Assembly (NCBI GenBank): GCA_026985515.1
Contig: JALSQH010000222.1
Location: 1-27,126 of the forward strand
Reading direction: 5' to 3'
DNA length: 27,126 nucleotides
From: a bacterium
GTDB taxonomy: Bacteria > JALSQH01
This document shows positions 8,268-17,866 of this stretch, one piece after another. How positions within the stretch are numbered: position 1 is the first letter of the stretch; each line of letters opens with the position of its first letter. The notes beneath the pieces are model-generated. The model made no database searches. It saw nothing but the letters and a program-made list of their open reading frames with translations, and had not been told where the DNA came from. Made by a program: the position numbers and the translations under genes.

Positions 8268-9374
8268 ATGGAAAGTTTTGAATATTCTGGTAGGAATTCT
8301 CTTTTCGTTGATCTTAACGCTATTTATGAGAACCTCAGATATCTGAAAGAAGTTTCCCGCAGGCAGATTATTCCTGTAATCAAGGCAGATGGTTACGGTC
8401 TTGGTGCCGTAGCCATTGCGAGATATCTTGAAGGTAAAGGTATAAGATATTTTGCCGTGGCAACTTATGAAGAGGCGATGGAACTGAGGGACTCAGGGAT
8501 AAAGGGGAAAATACTCATTTTAAGTGGTTCACCGGATGATCCATATGAAAAGATGCAGAGCCTTGATTTTGTCCCGGTTGTGTATTCCAAAGATCAGCTG
8601 GTTTCAATAAAGAAAAATCTTAAGAATCCCATTGCCGTACATATTAAATTTAACACCGGAATGAACAGGCTTGGTTTTGATGAAGAGGAGTTTAAAGGTT
8701 TATTTTCCGAAATGGATGGGGTTGAAATTGAGGGTGTATTGACACACTTTTCAAAGGCAGACACGAGTAAAAGTTATACGGAGTGGCAGATTTCAAGATT
8801 TAAAAAAATCCTTAAAATGTTTAAGATGGAAAATGTAAAGGTCATCCACTCTGCAAATTCTGCTGGTATATTGAGGGGTTTTTCTTTTGGAAATGCGGTG
8901 AGACCAGGAATCTTCCTTTATGGGGCCCTTCCCAATCCCGATTTTCCGAGGCCCCTGAAGCAGAGGATACCCTACAGATTTCTATGTAAAATTCTTGAGA
9001 TCAGAAAGTTAAAAAAGGGTGACAGGGTAAGCTATGGTGGCACATATATTGCCGGAAGTGATATGAAAATAGCTATCGTTGGATGTGGATATGCAGACGG
9101 GATTCCCCGCCTGTTGTCAAACAGGGGGTCTTTTCTTTTCGAGGGCAGAAGGCTTCCCATAACCGGAAGGGTTTGCATGGATATGACTATCATAGATGTG
9201 ACATCTGTGCCATCCCTCAGAAGAGGAGACTCTGTGGTATATCTGGGTGAAAGTGGAAAAGAGGTTATATATGCAGATGATGTGGCAAAAAAGGTGAAGA
9301 CCATTGGTTATGAAATACTTACCTCAATTTCGTCGAGGGTAAAAAGAAAGTATAGAGGTGATGGAACTGATTGA
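8268..9374 (+). CDS. alr: Alanine racemase
   Basis: Predicted 368-residue cytoplasmic PLP enzyme that makes D-alanine for peptidoglycan. The N-terminal TIM-barrel part carries the PLP lysine in VIKADGYGLGA (Lys39). Later motifs include HIKFNTGMNRLGF, VRPGIFLYG and the catalytic Tyr in RVSYGGTY; MDMTIIDVT lies in the C-terminal beta domain. The length is normal for the family. The ATG at 8268 has no good Shine-Dalgarno sequence, but no better start exists. It is the first gene of a tightly packed operon, and its last 14 bases overlap mlaE. The operon also carries dtd, which removes D-amino acids from tRNA, so a producer and a detoxifier of D-amino acids share a transcript. Confidence 0.95.
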   Translation: MESFEYSGRNSLFVDLNAIYENLRYLKEVSRRQIIPVIKADGYGLGAVAIARYLEGKGIRYFAVATYEEAMELRDSGIKGKILILSGSPDDPYEKMQSLDFVPVVYSKDQLVSIKKNLKNPIAVHIKFNTGMNRLGFDEEEFKGLFSEMDGVEIEGVLTHFSKADTSKSYTEWQISRFKKILKMFKMENVKVIHSANSAGILRGFSFGNAVRPGIFLYGALPNPDFPRPLKQRIPYRFLCKILEIRKLKKGDRVSYGGTYIAGSDMKIAIVGCGYADGIPRLLSNRGSFLFEGRRLPITGRVCMDMTIIDVTSVPSLRRGDSVVYLGESGKEVIYADDVAKKVKTIGYEILTSISSRVKRKYRGDGTD

Positions 9375-10128
9375 GAAAATAGGATTCTACTTTTATGACC
9401 TGATGAGTATCGTGGGGGAATTTGTAATTTTCCAGTGGGAAACAGTAAAGGCCTTTTTCAGGCCGCCGTTCAGATGGAGGGAATTACTTTTTCAGCTTGA
9501 ATTTATTGGTGTTAAATCGTGGGGAATTGTCTCCCTTACCGGACTTTTTGCTGGCATGGTAATTGCCCTTGAAACCTCGTATGCTCTGAGTCTTTTCAGT
9601 GCGGAGTATTTGATTGGTCCAACAACCATGCTTGCCCTTTTCAGAGAACTTGGGCCTGTCCTGACTGCTCTTATGATAACAGGGAGAGCTGGATCTGCAA
9701 TGGCAACAGAGCTGGGTAGCATGAAAGTGACTGAACAGATAGATGCTCTCTATGTCATGGCTGTTGATCCCATTCAGTATCTTGTTGTTCCCAGAATCCT
9801 TGCCACGATTATTATGATGCCCCTGCTGACTTTTCTCTTTGTGTTTCTTGGAGGTGTTGGAGCATTCTTCGTGAGTACATATTCAGGAGCAGTTACACCT
9901 CACACTTTCTTCTCGCAGATTATTACCAAGGTTCATAATCATGATCTTTACGGGGGACTTTTGAAAACCATGTTTTTCGGGTTCATAATTGCCACCATTA
10001 GTACATACACAGGTATGAAAACAAGGGGTGGTGCAAGGGGGGTGGGAAAGTCATCCACAACGGCTGTTGTACTTTCTTCCATTGCGGTGATGGTTGTAGA
10101 TTATATTTTGACGCCATTTATATTTTAG
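9361..10128 (+). CDS. mlaE: MlaE-type ABC transporter permease
   Basis: Predicted 255-residue inner-membrane permease of the MlaE/YrbE family, which moves phospholipids between the inner membrane and the MCE protein of the same complex. The core motif ELGPVLTALMITGRAGSAMATELGSM, which contacts the ATPase, is intact, followed by EQIDALYVMAVDP and several hydrophobic helices. I start at ATG 9361, which is just after GAGGTG and inside the 3' end of alr; GTG 9358 is a near-equal alternative. MlaF follows eight bases after the stop. (Motif text is quoted in pieces of family importance: ELGPVLTALM, then GRAGSAMATELGSM.). Confidence 0.93.
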   Translation: MELIEKIGFYFYDLMSIVGEFVIFQWETVKAFFRPPFRWRELLFQLEFIGVKSWGIVSLTGLFAGMVIALETSYALSLFSAEYLIGPTTMLALFRELGPVLTALMITGRAGSAMATELGSMKVTEQIDALYVMAVDPIQYLVVPRILATIIMMPLLTFLFVFLGGVGAFFVSTYSGAVTPHTFFSQIITKVHNHDLYGGLLKTMFFGFIIATISTYTGMKTRGGARGVGKSSTTAVVLSSIAVMVVDYILTPFIF

Positions 10129-10136
10129 GTGTGCAT

Positions 10137-10892
10137 ATGAGACCAATCATTAAGCTTAGAGGAGTTGTTAAAAAGTTCGGGAATCTGACCGTTCTGAAGG
10201 GAATTGATCTCGATATATATGAGGGGAAAATAACAACAATAATGGGTTTAAGCGGGTCAGGAAAAAGTGTGACCATGAAGTTAATACTTGGTTTGCTTGA
10301 ACCTGATGAAGGGGAAATATATTACTACGACAGGAAAATATCTCGTATTCCTTTCTCTGAAAGAAAGGAGATTTTAAAGAAGTTTGGTGTTGTCTTCCAG
10401 AATTCTGCACTTTTTGACTCCCTTACACTTTTTGAAAATGTTGCCTTTCCATTGAGGGAACATTACAATCTGACTGAAGAGGAAATTGAAAGAAGGGTAA
10501 CTCATGTCCTTGAACTTGTGGGTTTAAAGGGTGCTGAGGAAAAATACCCCTCAGAGCTGAGTGGGGGGATGAGAAAAAGGGGTGGGCTGGCGAGGGCCCT
10601 TGTTACTGAACCGGAGGTAATGCTTTACGATGAACCAACCACTGGTCTTGATCCTGTTACGGGAAGGGTTATTGAGGATTTGATAGTTGATCTTTATATG
10701 AAGTATGGTCATACGGCTCTCACAATCAATCACGATGTTCAAAGTACAATGAGGATGTCAGATTACATAGCCTTTCTTTATGATGGAAGAATCGAATTCT
10801 TTGGAACTCCCGAGGAAGCTTTTAAAAGTAAAAGTATTTACCTAAAACAATTTCTGGAGGGGAGAGCGGAGGGACCAATTAAAGTGGTATAG
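10137..10892 (+). CDS. mlaF: MlaF-type ABC transporter ATP-binding protein
   Basis: Predicted 251-residue cytoplasmic ATPase that powers the MlaE permease. Walker A is GLSGSGKS (about 37-44), the Q-loop lies in VVFQNSALF, the signature is LSGGMRKRGGLARAL, Walker B is VMLYDEPTTGLDP, and the switch histidine is in TINHD. The Arg-rich signature (GMRKR) is characteristic of the MlaF branch. ATG 10137 is preferred over GTG 10131, because AGG lies seven bases upstream of the ATG. The stop codon TAG overlaps the AGGAGG that serves the next gene, so translation of mlaF and mlaD is closely linked. Confidence 0.93.
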   Translation: MRPIIKLRGVVKKFGNLTVLKGIDLDIYEGKITTIMGLSGSGKSVTMKLILGLLEPDEGEIYYYDRKISRIPFSERKEILKKFGVVFQNSALFDSLTLFENVAFPLREHYNLTEEEIERRVTHVLELVGLKGAEEKYPSELSGGMRKRGGLARALVTEPEVMLYDEPTTGLDPVTGRVIEDLIVDLYMKYGHTALTINHDVQSTMRMSDYIAFLYDGRIEFFGTPEEAFKSKSIYLKQFLEGRAEGPIKVV

Positions 10893-10902
10893 GAGGTGAG
10901 GT

Positions 10903-12402
10903 TTGTCGGAGTATAAAAAGCAATTGATAAGTACGGAAGCAAAGGTGGGATTCTTTTCATTAATTATCCTTGTAATACTTATCTTCGTTTCCATAAAACT
11001 GACGGGGTGGAAATGGGGAGAGAGGAAGGGATACTATCTATATGCCTTTTTTGATAATGTTGAAGGACTCTCAAGAGAATCGCCTGTTGTGATAGCTGGT
11101 ATAAAAATTGGAAAAGTGGTGGATATTTCTCTCGTAAATGACAGAGCAAAGGTGAAGATTAAGATTTTTGATAAAAATAGAGTGACCTCCGATGCTCAGG
11201 CAATAATCAGAACGAGAGGGATACTTGGGGAAAAGTACATAGAGATAAAAAACGGCAGTTCTGCAGTTTTCCTTGAAAATGGCGACACAATTAAGAAAAC
11301 CCTGAGTCCGCCCGATTTTGAGAAAATGATCAACGAGATGAGTGTTATAACAGTAAAGCTTGAGGAAATTGTGAGTTCTCTGTCCGGGGTCCTGGGTGGG
11401 AAGGAGAATAAGCAGAAACTCTCAGAGATCGTTGAAAATATAAGAGTTTCTACTGAGGAATTTAAAACCACAATAGCTGACCTGAAAGCTAAAGTGGACT
11501 ACCTCTATTCTGGTCTGAGGCCTTCAATAAAAAACATCAGGGCTGTTACCGGTATTCTGAAAGAAAGCCTTCCCGGTATGGTGGAAAAATATAATAACAT
11601 GATGAAACAGTTGGGGGAGGTTGTTGAGAATAGCAGTAAAAATATTGATTCTTCCATCAAGCAGCTAAAAGAAGCTATGAATGAATTTGCTCCGGCACTC
11701 GAAGACTTGAGGAATATTTTGAAAAAGATGAGAGAAGGGAAGGGGACTATTGGAAAACTTCTTACTGATGAAACTACAATCACAAAGCTTAACAGTTCCA
11801 TAGATAAGGTTGATAAGTTATTGAAAAAGGTGGAGGATATTCAGGTAAAGATAGATTACCAGGGTGAGTATCAGATCAAAAGGGATGAAGGATGGAAGAG
11901 TTATTTAAACTTTGAGATTTATCCAGATAGGAGCAAAAGTTACATTTTTGGAATTGTCAATGACCCGGTTGGGAGAGAAACATGGAGGGAGGAGGAAATA
12001 GTAACCGTTAGCGGTAACCAAACCACCAGAAGAGTGGTTAAAGAAAAAGTGAGAGAGGACAAACTGAAAGTAAATATCGAGTATGCAAGGCACTTTGGTG
12101 ATTTCACTGTGAGGGGTGGAATAATACAGAATTCTGGTGGAGTAGGTTTTGATTACACCTTTCTGAATAATCATGCCATGATGAGCCTGGAAGGATTTGA
12201 TTTCGGCAGGAAAACCAATCCATATCTGCGTTTCAGACTTGCCATCTGGCCATGGAAATACTTTTACATAGTGGGAGGAAGCAGCGATTTTATCAACTAT
12301 CAGGCCAGTCCAATTTATTTTCTTGGAGCGGGTATTAACTTTACCGATAGTGATCTCAAGTATATTTTCTCTTTTGTTCCATCAGTGGGAGTTTCAAAAT
12401 GA
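10903..12402 (+). CDS. mlaD: MlaD-type MCE protein with long helical region and C-terminal barrel-like domain
   Basis: Predicted 499-residue MCE-domain protein, far longer than the roughly 180 residues of E. coli MlaD. It starts at TTG 10903, supported by AGGAGG six bases upstream. The layout is: one inner-membrane helix (GFFSLIILVILIFVSIKL, about 16-33), an MCE domain (about 40-120, with VVIAGIKIGKV), and a long charged helical and coiled region (about 130-310). The C-terminus (about 320-499) has alternating polar/hydrophobic strands and aromatic girdles (RLAIWPWKYFYIVGG) and looks like a small outer-membrane barrel. Such a chain could span the envelope alone, as proposed for MlaD of the diderm Firmicute Veillonella parvula. 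No mlaA, mlaB or mlaC is present here. Confidence 0.88.
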   Translation: MSEYKKQLISTEAKVGFFSLIILVILIFVSIKLTGWKWGERKGYYLYAFFDNVEGLSRESPVVIAGIKIGKVVDISLVNDRAKVKIKIFDKNRVTSDAQAIIRTRGILGEKYIEIKNGSSAVFLENGDTIKKTLSPPDFEKMINEMSVITVKLEEIVSSLSGVLGGKENKQKLSEIVENIRVSTEEFKTTIADLKAKVDYLYSGLRPSIKNIRAVTGILKESLPGMVEKYNNMMKQLGEVVENSSKNIDSSIKQLKEAMNEFAPALEDLRNILKKMREGKGTIGKLLTDETTITKLNSSIDKVDKLLKKVEDIQVKIDYQGEYQIKRDEGWKSYLNFEIYPDRSKSYIFGIVNDPVGRETWREEEIVTVSGNQTTRRVVKEKVREDKLKVNIEYARHFGDFTVRGGIIQNSGGVGFDYTFLNNHAMMSLEGFDFGRKTNPYLRFRLAIWPWKYFYIVGGSSDFINYQASPIYFLGAGINFTDSDLKYIFSFVPSVGVSK

Positions 12403-13943
12403 TAGAGATTATTGTTAATGGAAAGAGGTATTCCTTTCCAGAAGGAAGGTGGAGTCTGGCAGATCTCCTCTGGAGTGCAGGGTATGAGATCCCTCTTCCC
12501 TGTGCAGGTCTTGGAAACTGTGGAAAGTGCCAGATAAAAGTCAGGGGTGATGTTGAAATCCTTGACAGCGATAGAAAACTGATTCCTCCTCACAGACTTT
12601 CTGAGGGATATCTTCTTGCATGCAGGGTGAGGAAATTAAGGGGAAGCGTGGAGGTTGAACTGCCTAATGTGGAGAGGAGAAAGAAGATAGAAATTGAGGA
12701 GGTGAAGGTAGAGAGGGTGAATGCCGGTGTTGATCTGGGTACCACCTCCATTGTGGTGAATTTCTCCCCTGTTGAAAGGGGGCGTGTTTTTTACTCCTCT
12801 TCCTCCCTGAATCCCCAGACAAGGTATGGTGCTGATGTAATAAGCAGAGTTACGTATATAGGTGGTGATAACAGCAGATTGCAGAAGATGAGACAGGGGG
12901 TGGTGGAGTATTTAAACGGTGAGATAGAAAGTGTCAGAGAAGATATTGGTTTCAAAAAGGTTGAACTTGTGGGAGTGGCGGGAAATTCAATAATGGAGCA
13001 TATTTTTCTTAACCTGGATCCCTCTCCCCTTACCAGATTTCCCTTCACCCTTTCCTTTAAAGATGGAGTTTTTAAAAGAGGTGAAGAACTGGGCATAAGT
13101 GCTGAAAAAGTGTTCATTTTCCCACTTGTTGGAGCCTATGTAGGGGGAGACACAGTTGCATTACTGATGGATCTGGAGCCCTTAAAGAAGCCTGCCAGGC
13201 GAGTCATTGTTGATATTGGTACCAATGGGGAGATTGTTGTTCAGAATGGTGAAAATTTATTCGCAACCGCGGCAGCTGCCGGTCCAGCCTTTGAGGGAGG
13301 AAATATAACCTTTGGAATGAGAGCAGAAAATGGTGCAATTGAACGTTTCTGGATGGAAGATGATCGTTTGAAATACAGGACAATTGGGAATCTACCTCCA
13401 GAAGGAATATGTGGATCTGGACTGATGGATCTCATAGCGGTTCTGACAGAAGAGGGAGTGGTGGATGAAAATGGAGCAATCAGGGATCCCATGGAAATAG
13501 ATTCTCCCCTTTTTAGCAGAGTGAAAGAAAAAAATGGTGAGAGAATTTTCCTCGTTTACAGAGATGTAAAAAGAGAAATTTATGTAACCCAGAAAGATAT
13601 AAGAGAATTCCAGCTGGCAAAGGGAGCCATAAGAGCAGGTATGGAAGTCTTGTTGAAAAAAGCGGAACTGAGCTGGCAGGATATTGATGAAGTGATAATT
13701 GCCGGTGCATTTGGCAGTTATCTTATGCCTGATAGCCTTATCAGTGTGGGGATGTTTCCGGAGGATGTGAGGAATAGAATCGTATTTACAGGTGATGCTG
13801 TTATAAGGGGTGTCAATAAAGTACTTGGCAGGGATTTATTTGATGAAGCAAACAGAATGGCCAGGAAAGTTAAATATGTGGAACTATCTCTTGAAGAGGG
13901 TTTTCAGGAAATATTTCTCTCTTCACTCTCTTTCAGGAGGTGA
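12399..13943 (+). CDS. RACo-like [2Fe-2S] ferredoxin-ASKHA protein (DUF4445)
   Basis: Predicted 514-residue cytoplasmic protein. The N-terminus is a plant-type [2Fe-2S] ferredoxin domain with C35-x5-C41-x2-C44 and C75. From about residue 105 an ASKHA (actin-like ATPase) fold follows, with VDLGTTSIVV, VDIGTNGEIVV, GICGSGLMDLI and VIIAGAFGSYL. This is the architecture of RACo/RamA-type proteins, which use ATP to drive one-electron reduction of inactive Co(II) corrinoid proteins in methyl-transfer systems. It is shorter than typical RACo (about 600 or more residues). No corrinoid protein or methyltransferase lies nearby, so the target is unknown. ATG 12399 overlaps the mlaD stop as ATGA. Confidence 0.85.
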   Translation: MIEIIVNGKRYSFPEGRWSLADLLWSAGYEIPLPCAGLGNCGKCQIKVRGDVEILDSDRKLIPPHRLSEGYLLACRVRKLRGSVEVELPNVERRKKIEIEEVKVERVNAGVDLGTTSIVVNFSPVERGRVFYSSSSLNPQTRYGADVISRVTYIGGDNSRLQKMRQGVVEYLNGEIESVREDIGFKKVELVGVAGNSIMEHIFLNLDPSPLTRFPFTLSFKDGVFKRGEELGISAEKVFIFPLVGAYVGGDTVALLMDLEPLKKPARRVIVDIGTNGEIVVQNGENLFATAAAAGPAFEGGNITFGMRAENGAIERFWMEDDRLKYRTIGNLPPEGICGSGLMDLIAVLTEEGVVDENGAIRDPMEIDSPLFSRVKEKNGERIFLVYRDVKREIYVTQKDIREFQLAKGAIRAGMEVLLKKAELSWQDIDEVIIAGAFGSYLMPDSLISVGMFPEDVRNRIVFTGDAVIRGVNKVLGRDLFDEANRMARKVKYVELSLEEGFQEIFLSSLSFRR

Positions 13944-14387
13944 ATGGTGATAGTTTTGCTTCAGAGAGTTGAAAGATGCAGTGTTGAGGTGGATGGAGAA
14001 ATTGTGGGGAAGATCGGAAGAGGTCTGTGTATCTTCCTGGGCATAAAAAAAGGAGACAGCGAGAATGAAGCAGACTGGCTTGTTGAAAAAGTGTCAAATC
14101 TGAGGATCTTTGAAGATGATCAGGGTAAGATGAATCTGAGTGTTAAAGATATTGGGGGAGAAATACTTGTGGTTTCTCAATTCACCCTTTATGGCAACTG
14201 CAGGAAGGGAAGACGCCCTTCCTTTGACAAAGCTGCCCCGCCTGAAGAGGCAGAACCACTTTATAACTATTTCGTGGAGAAATTGAGAGATAAAGGGTTC
14301 AGGGTAGAGACAGGAATATTCAGGGCTGAAATGAAGGTTGACATTCTAAATGATGGTCCAGTAACCTTTATAATTGAATATCCCTGA
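13944..14387 (+). CDS. dtd: D-aminoacyl-tRNA deacylase
   Basis: Predicted 146-147-residue homodimeric editing enzyme that hydrolyses D-aminoacyl-tRNAs and glycyl-tRNA(Ala). The catalytic-site motif SQFTLYG (usual form SQFTLxA) and the cross-subunit motif NDGPVT (usual NxGPVT with Gly-cisPro) are both present, and the length is standard. AGGAGG ends three bases before ATG 13944 and six before GTG 13947. The GTG gives [15 protein letters not shown], which aligns without a gap to the usual MIALIQRV start, so the true start is probably 13947. The stop of the preceding gene abuts the ATG. Confidence 0.95.
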
Positions 14388-14405
14388 TGCTACAGGGAGA
14401 AGGAC

Positions 14406-15917
14406 GTGGATATCTACAACGTATTTCTTGACAGAGATTTCAGAATACTCAGCATAGGTTCCTTTCTAATTGAGAAGTTAAGGTACAGGGAGGAACATCT
14501 CAAAAACAGATCCTTTTTTGAAATTGTATTCCCGATGGACAGAGATAGTTTCAGAGAGTTTCTCACCCAGTCAAAATCCGGGTGTATCTGCTCTGTGAGA
14601 CTGGTTGACAGGACGGATCGAATTGTATACGCCAGAGTAAAGTATCACTCAGATGAGAAGGGGTACTATCTCAAGGTTGAAATCATACCTTCTCCACTTG
14701 AAGAGGTTGATGATCTGAAATGGCAGCTTGAGATTCACCAGAAGGGGCTTGAAATGATAGGAGCCGGCTTAATTTTCACAGATATTCATGGTACCATTCT
14801 CTATGTGAGCAGATCAGCTGAAAGGTTGCTGAAACTTGTTTCCAGGAACATCATTGGTAAAAACATCAACGAATTTATATCCTCAGACAACATTGAATTC
14901 ATAACATCAGGAGATGATGAAATAAGGGAAGTAAAATTTCACTATCGTGGAAAAACCATATACCTCGGGTATCACAGCGATTATGTTAGCAGTACAGATG
15001 GAAGAATTGCGGGATATCTTATAGCATTTATGGAAATTTCTGACCTCAAGAGGCTTGAAAAGGAGCAGGCAAGGATAGACAAACTTGCTTCGCTTGGAAT
15101 TCTGGCATCGGGGATTGCCCATGAAATAAGGAATCCCCTTGCAGGAATAAAGGCAATGGCCCAGACTATTCAGAGTGAACTCTCTGAAAGTGATCCAAAC
15201 AGAAAGTATGTGGACAGAATAATTAATCAGGTCAATCGCCTTGATAAAATACTTAAGGCTTTTTTTGCCTATGCCAGACCAAAGGTACCCTTTCGTACAG
15301 AGGTGAATTTTAAAGAAGTTGTAGGAGATATTGATTTGATGTTGAGGCACCAGTGTGAGAAGAAGGGTGTGAAGTTGAAGATAAGAGTTCCTTCAGATTT
15401 ACCCGATCTCATTGTTGACAGAGATCAGCTGCAGCAGATTCTCATCAATCTCGTCCTGAACGCCATAGATGCTGTGGAAGAAGGCAGAGGCGTTATTGAA
15501 ATAATTGCAGCCAAAAGCAAGAAAGTACCGGGTACAGCTTCTGGCAACAGAAGTTGCAGGAGAAAAGATGTATGTGGTGTCGAAATTATGGTGAAGGATA
15601 ATGGTTCAGGTATCGATCCAGGGATCATGGATAAAATATTTGATCCATTTTTTACCACTAAATCAAAGGGAACCGGTCTGGGATTATCCATAGTACATCA
15701 ACTTGTCACTGAAAATTGTGGCGAAATTTCAGTGGAATCTGAACCCGGGAAAGGTACAACATTCCATCTTTTCTTTCAGAGTCGCTGGACAAAATGTCAA
15801 AATAGCCTTTTATGTAAGTGTTTGAATTTTAAGCATAAATTCCCCGCATCCTGGCACAAAATTTGCAGCAAAATCGCAAAAGGAGGTGTATTATGGAGGA
15901 AACAAGGAATATTTTGA
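14406..15917 (+). CDS. PAS-PAS histidine kinase, NtrB-like, cytoplasmic
   Basis: Predicted soluble sensor kinase. A weak PAS-like domain (about 1-95) is followed by a clearer PAS domain (about 112-215), then a HisKA domain with the phospho-histidine in GIAHEIRNPLAG (His239). The HATPase domain has the N box (LINLVLNAIDAV), VKDNGSGIDPG, FDPFFTTKSKGTGLGL and GEISVESEPGKGTTFHLFF. No membrane segment is present, as in NtrB. It starts at GTG 14406 after AGAAGGA. The frame does not stop after the kinase domain: a 44-residue, Cys/Trp/Lys-rich tail of non-protein character runs through a sigma-54 promoter into the next gene. One added T near 15772 would instead give an ending LFLSESLDKMSK and a stop at 15803-15805, so a single-base deletion here is suspected. 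Confidence 0.9.
   Translation: MDIYNVFLDRDFRILSIGSFLIEKLRYREEHLKNRSFFEIVFPMDRDSFREFLTQSKSGCICSVRLVDRTDRIVYARVKYHSDEKGYYLKVEIIPSPLEEVDDLKWQLEIHQKGLEMIGAGLIFTDIHGTILYVSRSAERLLKLVSRNIIGKNINEFISSDNIEFITSGDDEIREVKFHYRGKTIYLGYHSDYVSSTDGRIAGYLIAFMEISDLKRLEKEQARIDKLASLGILASGIAHEIRNPLAGIKAMAQTIQSELSESDPNRKYVDRIINQVNRLDKILKAFFAYARPKVPFRTEVNFKEVVGDIDLMLRHQCEKKGVKLKIRVPSDLPDLIVDRDQLQQILINLVLNAIDAVEEGRGVIEIIAAKSKKVPGTASGNRSCRRKDVCGVEIMVKDNGSGIDPGIMDKIFDPFFTTKSKGTGLGLSIVHQLVTENCGEISVESEPGKGTTFHLFFQSRWTKCQNSLLCKCLNFKHKFPASWHKICSKIAKGGVLWRKQGIF
15852..15867 (+). promoter_or_regulatory. Sigma-54 (-24/-12) promoter of the roadblock cassette
   Basis: TGGCAC-N5-TTGCA matches the sigma-54 consensus TGGCAC-N5-TTGCW at every defined position, with GG (15853-15854) and GC (15865-15866) exactly ten bases apart. 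It lies 25 bases upstream of ATG 15893. A start site about 12 bases past the GC (near 15878) leaves AGGAGG (15881-15886) in the leader. The site points the same way as the genes it precedes. Such promoters need an NtrC-type activator, which is not in the window. Confidence 0.88.
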
Positions 15918-16249
15918 AGGAGTTTTTGAAAGTTGAGGGTGTAATTGTAGCCGCCCTTGTGAGTTTTGATGGTTTTCTTATTGATGGAGTTGGTCCTCAG
16001 GGAGTTGATCTGGAGGATATGGCAGTTGCTGCATCCACCGGATATGGGCTTGGAAAGAGGCTTGGCGAGAATATTCAGGGGGGAGACATTAAGCAGATAA
16101 TGCTGGAGTATGAGAAGAGATCAGTTATTGTTGCCAAGGTACCTTTTGTTGATGTTATTCTTTTCCTTGTAAGTGAGGAGGGTGCGAATCTTGGAGCCAT
16201 CAGATACAGCATAAAGAAACATGCAGGAGAATTGAGTAAGGTACTTTAA
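15893..16249 (+). CDS. Roadblock/LC7 (MglB-like) domain protein
   Basis: Predicted 118-residue single-domain roadblock/LC7 protein. The family fold is visible as LKVEGVIVAALVSFDGFLIDG, a central helix, a strand (SVIVAKVPFVDVILFLV), and a C-terminal helix ending in KKHAGELSKVL. (The first motif may be read as VEGVIVAALVSFDGF.) Roadblock proteins dimerise and often regulate small Ras-like GTPases such as MglA. No GTPase gene is adjacent. ATG 15893 follows AAAGGAGGTG by four bases, a very strong signal; the frame extends upstream to 15863 but that part covers the sigma-54 promoter. It is the first gene of the sigma-54-driven cassette. Confidence 0.88.
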   Translation: MEETRNILKEFLKVEGVIVAALVSFDGFLIDGVGPQGVDLEDMAVAASTGYGLGKRLGENIQGGDIKQIMLEYEKRSVIVAKVPFVDVILFLVSEEGANLGAIRYSIKKHAGELSKVL

Positions 16250-16270
16250 ATTTTAATCAGGAGGTAAAAG

Positions 16271-16777
16271 ATGGCTTTTGAAGATGTCGTCATAGAAAGA
16301 AATCTGAATAAATGGAATGTACTTGTTGCTTCTTTGATCGCAGGTTTTGATAAACTTGGGGTTCTCAGTCAGGCAGTTGTAAATAAAGATATGGAAGTTG
16401 TGGCTGACAAACTGGCACGATTTTTTAAAGTAAAGGGAAATGTGCCACAGGTTGATTCTTCATCATCGTTTGAAGAAAACATGAAGAGGATTATTGAATT
16501 CATAGATAGAGAGCTTGAACTTGCAGGTGAGAGTTCCGTTACATTGGAAGGGGAAAATGTAACGTTTGAGGTTGTGGGTAATACCTGCCATTTCTGTCCA
16601 AAAGGGGTTGGAGAGGCTGAATTACCTGGTACAGCGTGTCCATATCCATCTCTTTTGATGAATTTTGCGAATAAATTTCTGCCGGAAGATCAGCAGGTGG
16701 AGGTGGTACTTCAGGACAGAAACTATTTGAAAAAAGAAGGTGGAAAGTGTAGAATAATTTTCAGAAGGAAAAGCTAA
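16271..16777 (+). CDS. Four-cysteine protein, possibly V4R-like
   Basis: Predicted 168-residue soluble protein that I do not recognise with certainty. The N-terminal half is helical (WNVLVASLIAGFDKLGVLSQ; then a linker rich in Ser). The C-terminal half holds C106-x2-C109 (TCHFCPKG), C123 (GTACPYP) and C160 near the end, a pattern that could bind zinc or an iron-sulphur cluster. The arrangement of a Cys pair, a 'C-P-Y-P' helix start and beta strands recalls V4R (vinyl-4-reductase) small-ligand-binding domains, but this is a guess. It has a good RBS (AGGAGGTAAAAG before ATG 16271) and lies 21 bases after the roadblock gene and 15 before the response regulator, so the three are cotranscribed. 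Confidence 0.8.
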   Translation: MAFEDVVIERNLNKWNVLVASLIAGFDKLGVLSQAVVNKDMEVVADKLARFFKVKGNVPQVDSSSSFEENMKRIIEFIDRELELAGESSVTLEGENVTFEVVGNTCHFCPKGVGEAELPGTACPYPSLLMNFANKFLPEDQQVEVVLQDRNYLKKEGGKCRIIFRRKS

Positions 16778-16792
16778 AAGGGGCAGAAACAG

Positions 16793-17866
16793 ATGTCAGG
16801 AAAGAGGGTTCTCGTTGTGGATGATGAAGAGGATATACTTGTACCCACAACAAATTTTTTGAAGAAGAAATTGAAAAATACAGAGGTTCTGTCAGCCTTT
16901 GATGGTGAAGAGGCTTTAAAAATTGTAAGTGAAAGACCTGCGGATGTTGTTGTTACAGATATAAGAATGCCCAAGCTTGATGGACTGGAGTTTATGGTAA
17001 GGGCAAAACAGAAAAATCCTTCTACAAGATTCATAGTTATGACTGCCTATGGTTCACCCTCAGTGAGAGAAAAGGCAACCCGGCTTGGGGCGGTACACTA
17101 CATTGAAAAGCCCTTTGAACTGGACGACCTCTACGAAAAAGTAAAGCAACTTCTTGAATTTGGAGATGGTTTCCAGGGAAGTGTAGCTCAGCTTGAGTTA
17201 ACAGATATTGTTCAGGTTGTATGTCTTGGTAAAAAGTCAGTGACAATAGAGGTAAAAAGCGGTGTTAATACGGGATATATTTATGTACTGGATGGGGACA
17301 TAATCAATGCAAAAACGGGCAATCTGGAGGGTGAAGAAGCTTTTTATGAAATAGTCTCCTGGAGTTCAGGGGAATTCCGTTTCCTTCCACCAGAGGAAGA
17401 TGTGGAAAAGAGGATTGATATGAGATGGGAAAATCTTCTCATGGAGGCAATGAGAATAATAGATGAGAGGAGGAGAGAAAGGGAAAAATCAGAGGAAGCG
17501 GAGTTTGAGATTGATTTTAACACCTTTTTTGCCCGGTTGAAGGAGAGGGTTGATGGTGTTGTTTCTTCCGGGATTATTGATCTCTCCTCCGGTAAGTTAA
17601 TAGCAGAGGATGAGGTAAGTGTAGAGGATAAACTGGATGAGAAAGTTGAGCGATACGCAGAGTTCCTGCTTTTCACCAAAAATTTGATAGATGAACTGGA
17701 AAAAAGTGACCTCAGGGAAATATTTCTGGTTCTTGAGAAAGTGGCAATAGCCTTTTATAAAATAGGCGAGCGTTTTGTATGGGGGATTAAGATAGAAGAT
17801 AAGGACAATCTGGGGAAGCTCAAAATTGTGGTGGAGAAGATTCTGAGGGAGGCTGGAAAAGAATGA
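16793..17866 (+). CDS. Response regulator: receiver, PATAN (DUF4388) and roadblock-like domains
   Basis: Predicted 357-residue cytoplasmic regulator without a DNA-binding domain. The receiver (about 1-120) has acidic residues Asp10-Asp11, phospho-acceptor Asp56 (VVVTDIRMP), Thr84 (MTAYG) and Lys106 (EKPF), all intact. A PATAN/DUF4388 domain (about 128-205) follows, with VAQLELTDIVQVVCLGKKS and GYIYVLDGDIINA. After an acidic linker, residues about 246-355 look like a diverged roadblock domain (RVDGVVSSGIIDLSSGKLIAED). The output is therefore probably protein-protein contact, perhaps with the single roadblock protein of the same cassette. The PAS-PAS kinase just upstream is a natural phosphodonor candidate. 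The RBS is AAGGGG before ATG 16793. Confidence 0.9.
   Translation: MSGKRVLVVDDEEDILVPTTNFLKKKLKNTEVLSAFDGEEALKIVSERPADVVVTDIRMPKLDGLEFMVRAKQKNPSTRFIVMTAYGSPSVREKATRLGAVHYIEKPFELDDLYEKVKQLLEFGDGFQGSVAQLELTDIVQVVCLGKKSVTIEVKSGVNTGYIYVLDGDIINAKTGNLEGEEAFYEIVSWSSGEFRFLPPEEDVEKRIDMRWENLLMEAMRIIDERRREREKSEEAEFEIDFNTFFARLKERVDGVVSSGIIDLSSGKLIAEDEVSVEDKLDEKVERYAEFLLFTKNLIDELEKSDLREIFLVLEKVAIAFYKIGERFVWGIKIEDKDNLGKLKIVVEKILREAGKE

Follow-up and report, generated by a model that had tools for sequence, protein, structure and literature searches.

We analysed a 27,126-nucleotide stretch of bacterial DNA (GTDB lineage JALSQH01; contig JALSQH010000222.1 of NCBI GenBank assembly GCA_026985515.1, positions 1 to 27,126), hereafter the window, in which a histidine kinase gene is followed by a predicted sigma-54 promoter and three tightly spaced genes, here termed B, C and D. 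These encode a single-domain roadblock protein, a small four-cysteine protein with the predicted Bet3/TRAPPC3-V4R fold, and a receiver (REC)-PATAN protein that itself ends in a roadblock-like domain. The features of the locus are as follows:

14406-15917, forward strand: histidine kinase, soluble-looking, PAS-HisKA-HATPase_c (Pfam HATPase_c 4e-25, HisKA 2e-14, PAS 3e-8)
15852-15867, forward strand: predicted sigma-54 (-24/-12) promoter, TGGCACAAAATTTGCA, a zero-mismatch match to the consensus, with rpoN in the genome
15881-15886, forward strand: putative ribosome-binding site of gene B, AGGAGG, from the sequence
15893-16249, forward strand: gene B, single-domain roadblock/LC7 protein of 118 amino acids (Pfam Robl_LC7 2.3e-12)
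16271-16777, forward strand: gene C, four-cysteine protein of 168 amino acids with predicted Bet3/TRAPPC3-V4R fold (AlphaFold2, VIA-align and motif)
16793-17866, forward strand: gene D, 357 amino acids, REC (5-117), PATAN (127-226) and roadblock (about 246-354) domains (Pfam and iterated profile)

Gene B, which starts with an ATG at 15893, scored 46.9 bits against Pfam Robl_LC7, above the curated cut-off of 23, and is one of four roadblock matches in its genome. It is separated from gene C by 21 nucleotides (nt), and gene C from gene D by 15 nt. Within gene D, Response_reg (3e-26) and DUF4388/PATAN (1.1e-22; 80.8 bits against a cut-off of 25) were matched, and on reading the sequence the receiver was found to keep DD10-11, D56 within TDIRMP and the lysine of EKP. 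The C-terminus of gene D fell below the curated Robl_LC7 cut-off when compared directly (E = 0.035, 14.3 bits against 23); an iterated roadblock profile seeded with gene B reached it at 5e-17, and gene B also matched the C-terminus of a gene D homologue from another lineage (26%, 3e-10; locus L089). No DNA-binding domain was matched in gene D.

Upstream of gene B, the promoter pattern was scored as TGGCAC-N5-TTGCW, and the site at 15852-15867 was its only zero-mismatch match in the window, where base composition predicts approximately 0.017 such matches in 27 kb over both strands; for the 100 bases before one given gene, the chance expectation is 3e-5. Across the whole genome, which encodes rpoN, seven perfect matches were detected compared with none for a reversed control pattern. 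Three of these seven (L141-L143) lie in near-identical repeats, copies of one large repeated protein gene, so the pattern counts overstate the number of promoters, and about three sites (15852-15867, L139 and L140) appear by their position to be clearly promoter-placed. The -24/-12 geometry predicts a transcript start at approximately 15878, leaving a 15-nt leader. As no convincing sigma-54 sites were found upstream of homologous loci, the promoter does not appear to be a conserved feature of the module, and a terminator scan after gene D revealed no convincing operon end. Elsewhere in the window, a one-mismatch sigma-54-like site, TGGCACATATATTGCC, lies at 9038-9053 inside an open reading frame (8268-9374) and is probably no promoter.

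The kinase matched PAS, HisKA and HATPase_c, with a further weak PAS match first in the protein, and its reading frame as assembled passes through the promoter and into gene B. Within 15740-15917, an adjacent frame closes in a normal-looking kinase end, FRVAGQNVKIAFYVSV, and reaches its stop close to 15827, immediately ahead of the promoter. The overrun probably stems from a single-base error in the assembly or from a recent frameshift within a T-run, and the natural end of the kinase may be near 15827 if the assembly frame is shifted by one base. Among the loci fetched, the closest relative of the window kinase (38.6%, 2e-68) adjoins the REC-PATAN-roadblock gene of L089, which makes the window kinase a candidate kinase of gene D. 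Together, these results uphold what the initial annotation had drawn from the sequence, namely a sigma-54 promoter matching at all defined positions, three tightly spaced genes behind it with a single-domain roadblock protein first, a receiver-PATAN protein with a roadblock-like end and no DNA-binding output, and a soluble kinase upstream.

For gene C, sequence searches of Pfam, NCBIfam and the PDB returned no match, Pfam V4R (PF02830) did not match at E-values up to 10, and V4R was absent from the weak Pfam matches of 22 gene C homologues. Across these homologues the motif CxxCPxGVGx8CPxP was invariant, except for a slightly variable spacer before the third cysteine. The cysteines of gene C are Cys106, Cys109, Cys123 and Cys158; the first three were invariant, and the fourth was kept by each of the 13 stand-alone members, with a single fused member retaining it and the other eight fused members carrying Asp.

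An AlphaFold2 model built with the 22 homologues (predicted local distance difference test, pLDDT, 91.2; predicted template modelling score 0.87) comprised five helices and a beta-beta-alpha-beta-beta end. With VIA-align, its best superposition was on mouse Bet3, a eukaryotic protein of vesicle traffic (Z = 11.5 over 142 residues at 3.1 Å), followed by Thorarchaeal TRAPPC3 (Z = 11.3), the V4R domains of PoxR, MopR and DmpR (Z of about 9) and H-NOX and BcsD (about 8). The same set, Bet3/TRAPPC3, V4R, H-NOX and BcsD, has been reported as the structural neighbours of Thorarchaeal TRAPPC3 (Tran et al., PMC10933270). The best Foldseek E-value was modest (1.9e-3), so the case for the fold rests on the agreeing neighbour list and the Z-scores; the model has the five helices and four-stranded antiparallel sheet that define the V4R/Bet3 fold, superposing on solved members. 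The glycine pairs described for helices 2 and 5 of V4R domains (PMC2253512) are not both present, as the last helix of gene C (125-133) has none. A gene C profile search reached Thorarchaeal TRAPPC3 at E = 1.0, a weak match, and single comparisons between gene C and V4R profiles gave E-values of 0.018-0.025, which beat nearly all shuffled controls and are not significant; homology of gene C to V4R is consequently not claimed on sequence. We take gene C to work in the manner of a V4R or TRAPPC3 protein, as a candidate and no established member of either family.

Thorarchaeal TRAPPC3 is reported to bind zinc through four cysteines, similar to PoxR, at a site that creates a cavity by linking the sheet to a helix (PMC10933270). 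Gene C is likewise predicted to combine the Bet3/TRAPPC3-V4R fold with a candidate metal site, and the conserved cysteines and modelled fold together make such a site plausible. The initial annotation had described four cysteines placed for metal binding, a suggestion that survives here in its conserved residues, while the fold itself had been missed. The fold prediction led us to drop the idea that the cysteines form a zinc ribbon or a classical ferredoxin site, and an iron-sulphur cluster may be an alternative occupant of the site. A fold can now be assigned, by prediction, to a conserved cysteine-motif family that had no Pfam or NCBIfam match.

Through whole-genome searches and one scan of GTDB genomes, relatives of gene C were found to be patchily distributed in bacteria and archaea, occurring in one of these searches in 7 of 386 sampled genomes (one match marginal), and none was found among the viral contigs searched. 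Bacterial metagenome-assembled genomes (MAGs) with relatives carried the labels Caldisericales, Chitinispirillaceae, Polyangiaceae, Aegiribacteria, Sabulitectum and 'Deltaproteobacteria', with Desulfurellales also represented, and archaeal relatives came from Pyrodictiaceae and another Thermoproteota MAG (L017, L021, L022, L023, L025). In three of the four archaeal genomes with gene C relatives that were tested, no roadblock match was detected. Within Desulfurellales (L024-L035), the relatives carry a second conserved domain C-terminal to that of gene C, NGYxPxHNxxYDxPLTGDYxKDLxGNRSxRIF..., which has no Pfam match. At four of these loci (L029, L030, L031 and L033) the relative sits beside genes that read as a molybdopterin-type oxidoreductase and a ferredoxin, not a roadblock gene. 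In a further genome (L161 4891-6117, G410), the gene C relative directly adjoins cmk, and the cmk of the window lies 6 kb downstream of gene C, a resemblance that is possibly due to chance.

This distribution bears on the possibility that gene C is a stand-alone V4R-like ligand or redox sensor signalling to the kinase or to D, with the roadblocks as mere dimerization modules and no GTPase involved. The many genomes in which relatives stand alone, some of them archaeal and lacking any roadblock match, the fused C-terminal domain in Desulfurellales, and the role of V4R domains elsewhere as ligand sensors (PMC2253512, PMC10933270) are all consistent with such a sensor. Against it, C or V4R genes are repeatedly paired with roadblock genes and D-type proteins with MglA GTPases, as described below, and we regard this explanation as a tentative one on the unlikely side.

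Pairs of roadblock and gene C genes were found at six Desulfurellales loci (L024, L026, L027, L028, L032, L034), with the roadblock gene coming first in Desulfurella and second in Hippea-type genomes. As the Desulfurellales genomes tested carry one roadblock match each, adjacency by chance should be low, by our estimate about 2 in 1,700 per genome. At the Desulfurella locus a Ras-like GTPase gene also adjoins the pair (Pfam Ras 6e-12). Pairings of V4R with roadblock genes were detected separately. One operon of the AUK015 MAG (L170 1694-5798, G386:C50) brings MglA GTPase, V4R, roadblock and PATAN together, in the order MglA-type GTPase, a 386-amino-acid protein, V4R (PF02830, 9e-14), a cysteine-rich protein of 182 amino acids weakly like gene C (hhalign E = 4e-4), roadblock and PATAN-TPR. 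In a Caldisericaceae MAG (L178 2013-2949), a V4R gene directly precedes a roadblock gene (Pfam 4e-16 and 1.5e-14, respectively). V4R-like matches near roadblock genes in L183 and L184 were not counted, having no Pfam V4R match and hydrogenase-like neighbours.

The pairings also bear on whether B, C and D are merely co-transcribed in this lineage and share no complex, the roadblock-C neighbourhood being a chance or inherited linkage. In favour of this account, the trio is unique to this genome among those searched, and the window and Hippea-type loci have mlaE, mlaF and a RACo-like gene in common, so part of the neighbourhood may be an old linkage. Working against it, genomes with a single roadblock gene keep that gene beside C in two different orders, and V4R-roadblock pairs appear separately in the AUK015 and Caldisericaceae MAGs; we consider mere co-transcription very unlikely. 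From gene order, the link between roadblock and C or V4R genes appears to be real in some lineages and not general. The shared genes themselves, mlaE, mlaF, a RACo-like 2Fe-2S/ASKHA protein, roadblock and the gene C relative, lie within approximately 12 kb in the window (9358-17866) and at Hippea-type loci (L010, L012, L026, L032). At two further loci (L168, L169), a lone roadblock gene was observed beside a RACo-like gene.

Consistent with a link to GTPases, relatives of gene D recur beside MglA-type genes. At L158 and L159, in two further lineages, REC-PATAN-roadblock genes lie next to genes for an MglA-type GTPase and for roadblock proteins, and PATAN-roadblock, GTPase and roadblock genes occur together in L092 and L093. 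The pairing of kinase and gene D homologue recurs in L089, and at L095 a REC-PATAN gene accompanies genes for a kinase and an NtrC-type regulator. The genome of the window encodes MglA at 80-643 of contig C48, beside a roadblock gene, and on contig C93 (L104 2024-3064, G000:C93) a further MglA-type GTPase whose C-terminus is extended by a long acidic stretch, so a GTPase partner would be available in trans. It also holds a second REC-PATAN locus with a roadblock protein (L082, G000:C216), at which two small roadblock-sized proteins without significant Pfam matches were additionally observed. The initial annotation had suggested a phosphorylation-controlled protein-interaction switch with GTPase control among its possible roles, and comparison across these loci (L158, L159, L092, L093 and L089) lends this support.

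PATAN receiver proteins are thought to act on type IV pilus motors in other bacteria, and gene D could be a protein of this type, with a roadblock end that only homodimerizes and with B and C modulating D. PATAN and REC are indeed the best-scoring parts of gene D, and a study of Myxococcus pilus regulators counted PATAN proteins among its candidates (PMC11580455). However, gene D homologues adjoin MglA-type GTPase and roadblock genes, and no pilus gene was recognized near the window locus; a direct action on pilus motors therefore seems to us distinctly unlikely, and a pilus output downstream of MglA would still be compatible with these findings.

Overall, we interpret the locus as encoding a regulator that is under two-component control, acts on a Ras-like GTPase of the MglA type and pairs roadblock with Bet3-fold proteins in a TRAPP-like manner, and give this reading a probability of about one half. 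Under such a model, sigma-54 would transcribe B, C and D, and the kinase would phosphorylate the receiver of gene D, whose PATAN and roadblock domains would then bind partners; the roadblock domain would most likely pair with gene B or with the MglB of the cell. By analogy with Thorarchaeal TRAPPC3 and PoxR, the cysteine cluster of gene C would probably hold zinc and brace a pocket for a ligand, and gene C would join the roadblock proteins in a TRAPP-like assembly, adding a ligand or redox input. The assembly would act on MglA, whose genes lie elsewhere in the genome (C48, C93), by setting its nucleotide state or its placement, and with MglA as the target, polarity or pilus-based movement would be the probable consequence.

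Several observations weigh against this interpretation. No GTPase gene was matched within the window, and the AlphaFold2 model of the last domain of gene D was too poor for use (pLDDT 47). The initial annotation had proposed a neighbourhood search for the three genes together; the exact B-C-D trio was absent from all other genomes searched, and it is in partial pairings that the arrangement recurs. The sole same-family relative compared, an 80% complete genome, did not contain gene C. Furthermore, no roadblock gene was found within 1.5 kb of 30 ordinary V4R genes of other genomes, and where gene C relatives stand alone in other bacteria and archaea, roadblock genes do not adjoin them. Since some archaea with gene C have no roadblock match, gene C can apparently work without a roadblock partner.

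A stronger form of the preferred GTPase-regulator reading is a bacterial TRAPP-like complex, in which Bet3-fold and roadblock-fold subunits co-assemble as a guanine nucleotide exchange factor or GTPase-activating protein of a Ras-like GTPase, switched by the receiver. We hold this to be unlikely; were it true, the core pairing of eukaryotic TRAPP would already work in bacteria, in signal-controlled operons. Roadblock proteins, and separately proteins of the V4R/TRAPPC3 fold, have been put forward as the prokaryotic precursors from which GTPase regulators of eukaryotes arose. In the bacteria described here, genes of the two kinds, with the fold of gene C as predicted, are neighbours and are linked to a kinase and a receiver and, in one MAG operon, also to an MglA GTPase. 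These small, expressible gene sets open the possibility of testing regulation of a GTPase by Bet3-fold and roadblock proteins outside eukaryotes.

The closest known systems each resemble part of the locus. The MglA/MglB polarity module with RomR of Myxococcus and Thermus uses roadblock proteins together with a receiver protein to control a Ras-like GTPase, and the genome of the window likewise has MglA beside a roadblock gene; the window operon differs in lacking a GTPase, in the fusion of the receiver to PATAN and roadblock domains, and in including a Bet3-fold gene. By the definition of MglB that asks for an MglA gene within four genes (PMC4316618), gene B is not an MglB, as no GTPase was matched in the window. 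The actinobacterial conservon (CvnA kinase, CvnB roadblock, CvnC, CvnD GTPase; PMC4316618) has in common with the window a roadblock gene immediately after the kinase gene and a small protein in third place, although in the window this third protein is predicted to have the Bet3/V4R fold and is not CvnC, and the receiver-PATAN-roadblock protein stands in place of the GTPase. A conservon needs all of CvnA to CvnD in a single operon, and without a GTPase in its operon the window locus is not one. MglA Group 3, with a receiver-like protein, MglA and one or two MglB proteins (PMC4316618), resembles the window in combining a receiver protein with a roadblock, and the Desulfurella locus (L011/L024) resembles it with gene C added; the window receiver, in contrast, ends in PATAN-roadblock with no winged-helix end, and has no adjacent GTPase.

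Beyond these bacterial modules, the eukaryotic TRAPP core and the Asgard TRAPPC3, roadblock and longin proteins (PMC10933270) likewise place Bet3-fold and roadblock/longin-fold proteins around a Ras-like GTPase, and gene C has a cysteine site of the Thorarchaeal type. The sequence relation to these proteins is not significant, and the window differs in being bacterial, in its putative operon under two-component and sigma-54 control, in using a roadblock rather than a longin protein, and in that its assembly is putative. The V4R sensor domains of PoxR, MopR and DmpR (PF02830) resemble gene C in its predicted fold (Z of about 9) and in the region of that fold where the cysteines lie, whereas gene C has no Pfam V4R match, a different cysteine motif, no glycine pair in its last helix and no AAA+ output.

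Several elements of this arrangement have precedents: PATAN genes near MglA and MglB were noted earlier (PMC4316618, citing Makarova 2006), kinase-roadblock-GTPase conservons were already known (PMC4316618), and prokaryotic V4R was proposed as the source of Bet3 in 2008 (PMC2253512). In the open-access literature searched, we came across no description of an operon that joins V4R/Bet3-fold to roadblock genes, or of a REC-PATAN-roadblock fusion. Compared with these systems, the known part of the locus is two-component-linked MglA/roadblock regulation, and the new part is the predicted Bet3-fold partner.

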